39,216 bases of DNA, from NCBI GenBank assembly GCA_025059715.1, contig JANXCE010000022.1:1-39216 (forward strand), given 5' to 3'. Source of the DNA: Caldimicrobium sp. Lineage in GTDB: Bacteria; Desulfobacterota; Thermodesulfobacteria; Thermodesulfobacteriales; Thermodesulfobacteriaceae. The translations under genes were made by a program, and so were the position numbers. The notes under the pieces were generated by a model. It saw only the letters and a list, made by a program, of their open reading frames with translations, made no database searches and was not told the origin of the DNA. Shown piece after piece: positions 31,209 to 32,610 of the stretch; the first letter of the stretch is position 1, and each line of letters begins with the position of its first letter.

Positions 31209-31214
31209 GCAAAT

Positions 31215-31288
31215 CGGGACGTAGCGCAGCTTGGAAGCGCACCCGCTTGGGGTGTGGGGGGTCGGCGGTTCAAATCCGCCCGTCCCGA
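31215..31288 (+). tRNA. trnP: tRNA-Pro (GGG anticodon)
   Basis: Acceptor CGGGACG/CGTCCCG, D arm GCGC..GCGC, anticodon stem CCCGC/GTGGG (one G-T pair) with loop TTGGGGT (anticodon GGG), T arm CGGCGG TTCAAAT CCGCC and discriminator A. It is followed by a run of seven T. CCA not encoded. Confidence 0.95.
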
Positions 31289-31318
31289 TTTTTTTAATGT
31301 TTCTAAATTTATAAAAAA

Positions 31319-31335
31319 CCAGGCACCTTGCCTGG
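31319..31335 (-). terminator. Hairpin in the speD-like leader, shaped as a minus-strand terminator
   Basis: CCAGGCA (31319-31325) pairs with TGCCTGG (31329-31335), loop of 3. On the minus strand the stem is followed by TTTTTTAT, the form of an intrinsic terminator. On the plus strand it precedes GGGGAGGTGAG, the Shine-Dalgarno of the gene at 31349. No minus-strand gene upstream explains it. Confidence 0.5.
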
Positions 31336-31348
31336 GGGGAGGTGAGCT

Positions 31349-31789
31349 ATGAGGGCAACTCAAAGGGCCTGTCTCGTAGAAAATTTTGAGATTCTTCCTA
31401 CCCAGCAAGGTGCGGTTAAACGATGTATATGGAATTATCATCTGGTGGTAGAATTTTGGAATTCTCCCTTTGATCTTTTGGCTGAGGCAAGTGGTGTAGA
31501 GAAATCTCTACGTTTAGCCATAGAAGAGCCTCACAACAGAAATGAAATAAGGTCTATTAGTTATCAATTTCAGCCCTTTGGAGTCTCTGCTCAAGTCAAT
31601 ACAGGCCAAGCACATATTTATATCCACACCTGGCCTGAAAGAGGTTATTCCGCTATTGACATTATAGCAGATTCTAGAGATAAAGCCTATCAAATTTTAG
31701 AGAAATTACAGGAAGCCTTGCTTCCAGAAAAGATTTGTGTAGCAGAGGTTACAAGAGGGTTAGCTCAATCAGAGTGGGGGGAAACTTGA
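31349..31789 (+). CDS. SpeD-like protein (S-adenosylmethionine decarboxylase family) lacking the pyruvoyl serine
   Basis: 146 residues with the AdoMet decarboxylase proenzyme fold: HLVVEFWNSPFDLL, YQFQPFGVSAQVNTG and the hallmark IHTWPERGYSAIDI (92-105). In active SpeD the segment before IHTWPE reads SESHLxI and the proenzyme cleaves at Glu-Ser to make the pyruvoyl group. Here it reads GQAHIYI, so that serine is Ala (A88). The conserved Cys in the following DVFTCG is Asp (D108). The histidine of IHTWPE (H93) is kept. Self-processing and classical decarboxylation are therefore unlikely, though the fold looks intact. It overlaps the speE start (TTGA). GGAGGTGAG precedes ATG 31349. Confidence 0.85.
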   Translation: MRATQRACLVENFEILPTQQGAVKRCIWNYHLVVEFWNSPFDLLAEASGVEKSLRLAIEEPHNRNEIRSISYQFQPFGVSAQVNTGQAHIYIHTWPERGYSAIDIIADSRDKAYQILEKLQEALLPEKICVAEVTRGLAQSEWGET

Positions 31790-32610
31790 CTGGAAGCTTT
31801 TGGTGGCGAGAGCGTATCTTTAAGGATTTTGGTCATAGCTATTTCGCTGAATTAGTCTTTGAAGAACGGGGTTTACAAAAAATTCAAATCTTTAAAAATA
31901 ACACCTGGGGATATTTCCTGGTTTTAGATGGTATTGTCCAATTTACAGAGAGAGATGAATATATTTATCATGAAACTATTACTTATTTGCCTGCAAGTCT
32001 TTTAGATACTCCGCCAGAAGAGGTGCTAATTATTGGCGGAGGCGATGGGGGTGCTTTAAGGGAATTACAAAAAATTCCCACTTTAAAAAGAGTGGTTCAA
32101 TTTGAGATTGACAGTTTAGTTTTTGAGCTTTCTAAGAAATACTTTTTTAAAATTATGGGTAATTATGAGGATTCCAGAGTTAACTTTTTTATAAAGGATG
32201 GTTTGGTGGGATTACAGGAGAGCCCCTCCCAAACATTTGATATGGTTATTGTAGATTGCACAGATCCCGTTGGTCCGGCTAAAAGTCTCTATAACTCTCA
32301 GTTTTATGAAAATGCTAAAAGAGTATTAAAACCCGATGGTGTATTTATACAGCAGGCTAGTCTACCTGCTTACTTTCCCCATGTTCTGCAAGGAGCTTAT
32401 CCAATAATTAAGCAAATTTTTCCCTTTGTTAAGATTGTTAGGGCCTATGTGCCCTGTTATGGAGAGGAAATAGCTTTCTTTGTTGCAACCCTTGAAGAGA
32501 AGGACTGGTTTTATCCTAAGCAAAAGTTCTGGGGACGTTACTATCACCCACAATTGAACCCCTATTATTTTTCTATTCCAGCCACTTGGCTCAAACTGCT
32601 GAACCCTTGA
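31786..32610 (+). CDS. speE: Spermidine synthase-like aminopropyltransferase
   Basis: 274 residues from TTG 31786, which overlaps the speD-like stop (TTGA). Family motifs are FLVLDGIVQFTERDEYIYHE, the nucleotide-binding IIGGGDGGALRE (82-93), VQFEID, the catalytic-site VDCTDPVGPAKSLYN (156-170) and LKPDGVFIQQ. It would transfer an aminopropyl group from decarboxylated AdoMet to an amine. The ESP-like motif after VFxxQ is ASLP, a variant. Because its partner SpeD looks inactive, either another SpeD exists elsewhere or the acceptor or donor differs. The 3' end overlaps rsmD. Confidence 0.9.
   Translation: MTGSFWWRERIFKDFGHSYFAELVFEERGLQKIQIFKNNTWGYFLVLDGIVQFTERDEYIYHETITYLPASLLDTPPEEVLIIGGGDGGALRELQKIPTLKRVVQFEIDSLVFELSKKYFFKIMGNYEDSRVNFFIKDGLVGLQESPSQTFDMVIVDCTDPVGPAKSLYNSQFYENAKRVLKPDGVFIQQASLPAYFPHVLQGAYPIIKQIFPFVKIVRAYVPCYGEEIAFFVATLEEKDWFYPKQKFWGRYYHPQLNPYYFSIPATWLKLLNP

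Follow-up and report, generated by a model that had tools for sequence, protein, structure and literature searches.

A pyruvoyl-less SpeD homologue coupled to speE in Caldimicrobium and its relatives, a candidate subunit of a two-gene AdoMet decarboxylase

Why would bacteria keep, directly in front of a spermidine synthase gene, a homologue of AdoMet decarboxylase (AdoMetDC, SpeD) that lacks the serine from which the pyruvoyl cofactor is formed? This question is raised by a gene in a stretch of 39,216 nucleotides from Caldimicrobium sp., a thermophilic sulfur bacterium of the order Thermodesulfobacteriales (hereafter the window). An earlier note on this DNA described the gene as an intact speD paralogue in which the pyruvoyl-forming serine and a conserved cysteine are replaced, coupled to an aminopropyltransferase gene, and proposed to explain its retention by a role of the product as a conserved inactive partner, or by a new activity or ligand-sensing role. 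We refer to such a pyruvoyl-less homologue as dead SpeD.

The dead speD gene and its surroundings

The gene (31349..31789, forward strand) starts with ATG and encodes 146 aa. Its product belongs by sequence to the class 1b AdoMetDC family, matching Pfam AdoMet_dc with 73.3 bits against a cut-off of 25; with 66.2 bits it stays under the cut-off of the NCBIfam equivalog SAM_DCase_Bsu (75.65). The protein was aligned to Thermotoga maritima SpeD (1tlu/1tmi), which serves as the reference for residue numbering. Pyruvoyl-forming Ser63 and Glu62 are replaced by A88 (codon at 31610..31612, +) and Q87, and the catalytic Cys83 by D108 (31670..31672, +). The segment IHTWPE is retained, with H93 and E97 at the positions of His68 and Glu72 (H93 to E97, 31625..31639, +), as is S80 (31586..31588, +), the equivalent of Ser55. 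The alignment therefore confirms the substitutions that the earlier note had read from the sequence, residue numbers included.

An AF2 model of the protein (mean pLDDT 83.3, but about 95-98 in most of the domain) has the predicted half-sandwich fold, its best matches being T. maritima and Aquifex SpeD (Z 15.3-15.6; 1tlu 15.6), followed by the N-terminal domain of human spermine synthase (Z 9.7) and human AdoMetDC. A preference of the model for the C-terminal half of human AdoMetDC was rejected as evidence, since the model of the SESH-type paralogue described below, used as a control, gave a similar match set and aligned to the same half, so that the half chosen is uninformative.

The aminopropyltransferase gene speE (31786..32610, +; Pfam Spermine_synth 162.7 bits; top PDB match spermidine synthase 1iy9) begins with a TTG at 31786 that overlaps the TGA of dead speD at 31787-31789, giving a shared TTGA of four bases. 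This overlap recurs in relatives and is kept through the order, and a G-run within the 3' end of dead speD (31776..31781, +) is the probable Shine-Dalgarno sequence for coupled translation of speE. The gene's own Shine-Dalgarno sequence, GGGGAGGTGA (31336..31345, +), is also kept across the order. Immediately 5' of it lies a small hairpin, CCAGGCACCTTGCCTGG (31319..31335, +), whose stem (CCRGGC/GCCTGG) is kept across the order while the loop varies. Nearly every locus of the order has this hairpin abutting the Shine-Dalgarno sequence; the outlying dead genes lack it, and it matched no Rfam family. A pseudoknot between the loop and the Shine-Dalgarno sequence was dropped as a candidate because the loop sequence is not conserved. 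Directly upstream of dead speD is a tRNA-Pro (ggg) at 31214-31289, and a similar tRNA sequence lies upstream in several relatives.

Residues kept and lost across the dead clade

The same losses recur in 55 distinct dead proteins from many independent assemblies, so they are far from a chance event. These proteins are spread through the order and reach into outlying families of the phylum. When 395 genomes of the phylum were searched with a profile, the dead type was cleanly split from the remainder, with 33 genomes at 159-206 bits and all others at or below 103 bits. In a tree built on 132 columns, the deeper forks of which are weak, the dead proteins all cluster together (support 100/100), on the same side as canonical SpeD and apart from the SESH type. 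The clade that the earlier note looked for thus exists, though not by the motif it named: GQAH itself was seen only in the Caldimicrobium group, and elsewhere the site reads GRAH, GDAH, EEAH, GNVH, GCSH, GVTH, NSTMH and others. The clade has a single origin, and its ancestor would be a canonical SpeD that lost its pyruvoyl side and kept its trans-acting side.

The overlap with speE might suggest that dead speD is a decaying gene, or a mere leader reading frame through which speE translation is coupled. Decay is excluded by the median pairwise dN/dS of 0.095 among close dead pairs (0.055 for the SESH type), i.e., by purifying selection, and neither form of this explanation is credible for a gene with about 30 invariant residues in the order-wide alignment, which is also retained in three genomes with no speE downstream. 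The private, decaying gene that the note had held against its own proposal is therefore not what was found.

What selection has kept is specific. Phe49, Pro51, Ser55, His68, Glu72 and E11 are each present in 55/55 dead proteins, the HTWPE segment is invariant, and H7 is also retained. Position 63 is occupied by Ala (32 proteins), Ser (7), Val (4), Leu (4), Thr (3), Ile (3) or Met (2), Glu62 is free to vary, and the residues listed at position 83 (Glu, Arg, Gly, Ala, Asp, Lys, Ser and others) do not include Cys. Where Ser63 persists, its surroundings have mostly gone, with Glu62 lost in six of the seven proteins and Cys83 in all seven. No other serine is conserved near the site among the 55 sequences, which removes the alternative cleavage site that the note had allowed for, and the alignment of the clade contains no new conserved catalytic residue in place of Ser63 or Cys83. 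One clade member (L041, 1716-2135, genome G030) keeps Glu62-Ser63 in the form PESH, without Cys83, and may still self-process; its score of 80.7 bits exceeds the SAM_DCase_Bsu cut-off.

In bacterial SpeD two half-sandwiches dimerise and share each active site: one chain brings the pyruvoyl, Glu62 and Cys83, and its partner brings Phe49, Ser55, His68 and Glu72. In the human enzyme, Ser229 and His243 belong to the C-terminal half; from matching spacing and from what is known of the two enzymes we take human His243, Glu247, Phe223 and Cys82 to be the equivalents of His68, Glu72, Phe49 and Cys83. Human Ser229, which corresponds to Ser55, and His243 are required to convert Ser68 into the pyruvoyl (PMC3975893). 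The eukaryotic AdoMetDC chain consists of two fused bacterial half-sandwiches (PMC5201418), of which the second has no cleavage site in the human enzyme (PMC10407285). The dead proteins have the residues of that C-terminal half, with the equivalents of F223, S229, H243 and E247 in 55/55 and the Ser63/Cys83 pattern lost. If these equivalences hold, the kept residues would be the half-site lent to a neighbour's pyruvoyl, and the lost ones those that would surround the protein's own. By this homology to the human enzyme, the pattern suggests relaxation at Ser63, Glu62 and Cys83 together with strict retention of a trans-acting half-site.

A retained pocket could also serve a sensor of AdoMet, decarboxylated AdoMet or polyamines, or an enzyme that does without pyruvoyl. 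This explanation fits the conservation of substrate-binding residues, and genes for a SAM hydroxide adenosyltransferase (PF01887) adjoin or lie near dead speD at two outlying loci (L255, 5206-5994; L168, 5248-6093). However, nothing conserved has replaced Ser63 or Cys83, and no recurring partner gene besides speE was seen in the loci inspected; we give it a small chance of being right.

The SESH-type paralogue and a putative heteromeric decarboxylase

If dead SpeD lends a half-site, a chain with an intact pyruvoyl side should be at hand. The second, SESH-type speD for which the earlier note suggested searching is present in the window's genome beside an agmatinase gene, and nearly every complete relative carries one intact SESH-type SpeD besides the dead gene. 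Where a dead-gene genome is largely complete, this SpeD is nearly always encoded directly before the agmatinase gene; in a few incomplete assemblies of the order, just one of the two types was seen. The SpeD-family genes of dead-gene genomes are these two only, plus a further divergent copy in a few genomes.

The SESH-type protein is itself probably not a canonical AdoMetDC. It occurs with agmatinase also in genomes without an aminopropyltransferase (e.g., G157, G129 and G057), and elsewhere it coexists with a canonical SpeD-SpeE pair. A search for other sources of agmatine found none: in the window's genome the sole PF02784 match is LysA, with no further SpeA/SpeC-like PLP decarboxylase, most SESH genomes likewise have only a LysA-like enzyme (some relatives show a second PF02784 match), no PvlArgDC was found, and matches to OKR decarboxylase were fragmentary and below cut-off. 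Pro51, possibly the published gamma Pro that distinguishes true AdoMetDC, is absent in 58/58 SESH proteins, which have an insertion just before this site, and Glu72 is not conserved, being Leu, Phe or Asp in 11/58. On account of this context, the coexistence with the canonical pair, the Pro51/Glu72 pattern and the want of SpeA, SpeC or PvlArgDC, the SESH type is probably the arginine decarboxylase SpeDA of Li et al. 2023 (PMC10407285). The likeness to SpeDA is thus that of the SESH protein beside agmatinase, and not of the window gene.

The two types go together. In a 297-genome sample of the phylum, SESH was present in 23/23 dead-gene genomes and in 40/274 others (p about 8e-18, with no correction for phylogeny). 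The dead gene mostly takes the position next to speE that belongs to canonical SpeD elsewhere, and a profile search found canonical SpeD in 0/33 dead-gene genomes as against 65 genomes that lack the dead gene (p about 0.003, uncorrected for ancestry). Since the dead group is a single clade, these figures describe patterns and not independent events.

We consider the chances about even that dead SpeD is the non-pyruvoyl subunit of a two-gene, heteromeric AdoMetDC. The SESH chain would supply the pyruvoyl, Glu62 and Cys83, and the dead chain Phe49, Ser55, His68 and Glu72, so that a SESH-dead heterodimer would carry one AdoMet-decarboxylating site and feed decarboxylated AdoMet to SpeE, while SESH alone would work as an arginine decarboxylase. 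In three dead-gene genomes (G104, G238 and G319) position 72 of SESH is Asp, and Glu72 is therefore available solely from the dead chain. A need for the product is apparent in Thermodesulfobacterium thermophilum, which has the dead speD/speE gene pair. Norspermine is prominent in this species, and its two aminopropyltransferases both give spermidine in Escherichia coli (PMC11107197). These enzymes use decarboxylated AdoMet, which the bacteria therefore need, and with SESH and dead SpeD as the only SpeD-family genes, it is simplest to suppose that the AdoMetDC would be made up of these two proteins.

The neighbouring SpeE is the other obvious partner, and the main alternative is that dead SpeD binds it as a subunit serving dimerisation, stability or ligand sensing, in a two-gene version of human spermine synthase. 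The four-base overlap kept through the order and the match of the fold to the N-terminal domain of that enzyme, which mediates dimerisation (PMC11203672), speak for it. However, both T. thermophilum aminopropyltransferases are active in E. coli without dead SpeD (PMC11107197), so SpeE has no strict need for it, and the full retention of Ser55, His68 and Glu72 would be unexpected in a purely structural domain. Furthermore, dead speD nearly always adjoins speE but lies away from it in G138, G260 and G191, all three with SESH, and no aminopropyltransferase was found in G191 (97% complete). The C-terminal Thr of dead SpeD is retained in these genomes too, and is therefore not kept just for the ribosome site of speE. 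We regard a SpeE-bound role as unlikely. The earlier note's conserved inactive partner is well supported at the sequence level, in a conserved clade with SESH in the same genome, and adjacency to speE holds with these three exceptions; because of them, the likely partner is SESH, rather than or in addition to SpeE.

Dead SpeD could instead switch SESH on allosterically, as the trypanosome prozyme does its partner (PMC5201418), giving it no active-site residues; SESH would then be bifunctional or an AdoMetDC in its own right. Constant co-occurrence with SESH would be expected on this explanation as well, but the invariant catalytic residues of the trans half imply a contribution to the active site, and the trypanosome switch needs a dimerisation domain that bacterial SpeD does not have (PMC5201418), which makes it a rather improbable one.

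Several points weigh against a heteromeric AdoMetDC of SESH and dead SpeD. The retained H7 and E11 are not predicted by a simple trans model, the dead gene sits with speE and not with the SESH gene, and SESH itself may decarboxylate AdoMet. The weakest point is posed by six genomes (G118, G147, G175, G083, G201 and G288) with SESH, an AQSH-type SpeD and an aminopropyltransferase, where, as neither canonical nor dead SpeD is present, SESH or something else must make decarboxylated AdoMet. The other SpeD in genomes of this kind (L193, L196-L200) is of the AQSH or SQSH type and is possibly the ornithine decarboxylase SpeDC.

An extension of the heteromeric AdoMetDC, put forward more tentatively, is that one pyruvoyl subunit could serve two enzymes, the SESH homodimer acting on arginine and SESH with dead SpeD on AdoMet, with the half-site of the partner setting the substrate. 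Such an enzyme would be a two-gene AdoMetDC that occurs unfused in nature and whose substrate is switched by subunit exchange, and a living model for how the eukaryotic enzyme could have become asymmetric, with one active and one dead half.

Relation to known systems

Dead SpeD resembles class 1b SpeD (T. maritima TM0655, Aquifex aq_254) in predicted fold, in about 27-34% identity, in Ser55, His68 and Glu72 and in the speD-speE gene order, but without Ser63, Glu62 and Cys83 it would form no pyruvoyl by the known route, and it occurs alongside a second SpeD. With the C-terminal half of eukaryotic class 2 AdoMetDC it shares a half-sandwich without cleavage site and the residues that complete the active site of the other half; however, it is bacterial, and a separate gene and polypeptide rather than part of a fusion to the catalytic half. 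The N-terminal domain of human spermine synthase is likewise an inactive AdoMetDC fold joined to an aminopropyltransferase, whereas here the genes overlap without being fused and the AdoMetDC half-site residues are retained.

Two precedents involve dead paralogues. The trypanosomatid prozyme, described as restricted to trypanosomatids (PMC5201418), is a dead AdoMetDC paralogue kept with an active one in the same genome, as dead SpeD is kept with a paralogue whose intact residues suggest activity. Unlike the prozyme, dead SpeD is a class 1b protein of 146 aa, a single half-sandwich without the dimerisation domain, and by analogy with the human C-terminal half it would complete an active site rather than relieve autoinhibition. 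In bacteria, Victivallis vadensis and Desulfobacter latus have fusions of SpeD with a degraded SpeD domain, and a fused SpeD-dead-SpeD ancestor has been proposed for the asymmetric eukaryotic AdoMetDC (Li et al. 2023, PMC10407285). These fusions also pair a bacterial SpeD domain that lacks some active-site residues with a working one, but in one chain, whereas here two genes are involved, of which the intact one lies elsewhere in the genome and resembles SpeDA. Dead SpeD is best read as an unfused parallel of two of these systems, the trypanosome prozyme and the eukaryotic C-terminal half.

While trypanosomatids are already known to have dead AdoMetDC paralogues, and some bacterial fusions to contain a degraded SpeD domain (PMC10407285), a lineage-wide bacterial dead SpeD encoded by a separate gene, with selective retention of a putative trans half-site, was not found in the literature searched, nor was any publication on this gene among the full texts. 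A lineage seemingly without canonical AdoMetDC offers a small, expressible two-gene system for asking if an active site can be completed, or given another substrate, by a dead subunit. If the pair is indeed the decarboxylase, the annotation 'AdoMetDC' would be wrong for either SpeD gene of these organisms taken alone.

Further SpeD-like genes were seen at the margins of the family. The divergent copies L218 (G104), L225 (G171), L046 (G028) and L047 (G029) are mostly long branches in the tree, and two of them have an altered segment around His68, e.g., ETSMISAHFVNFT. The window's own assembly (G000) holds on contig C16 a GVTH copy and a SESH copy nearest to those of G028, a genome of the Thermodesulfobacterium group (83% and 93%). 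A real duplication is improbable for these copies, as their closeness to G028 fits the 4.8% contamination of the assembly, and contig C16 (L001, L004) probably belongs to another organism, similar to Thermodesulfobacterium, that has SESH and dead SpeD genes of its own.
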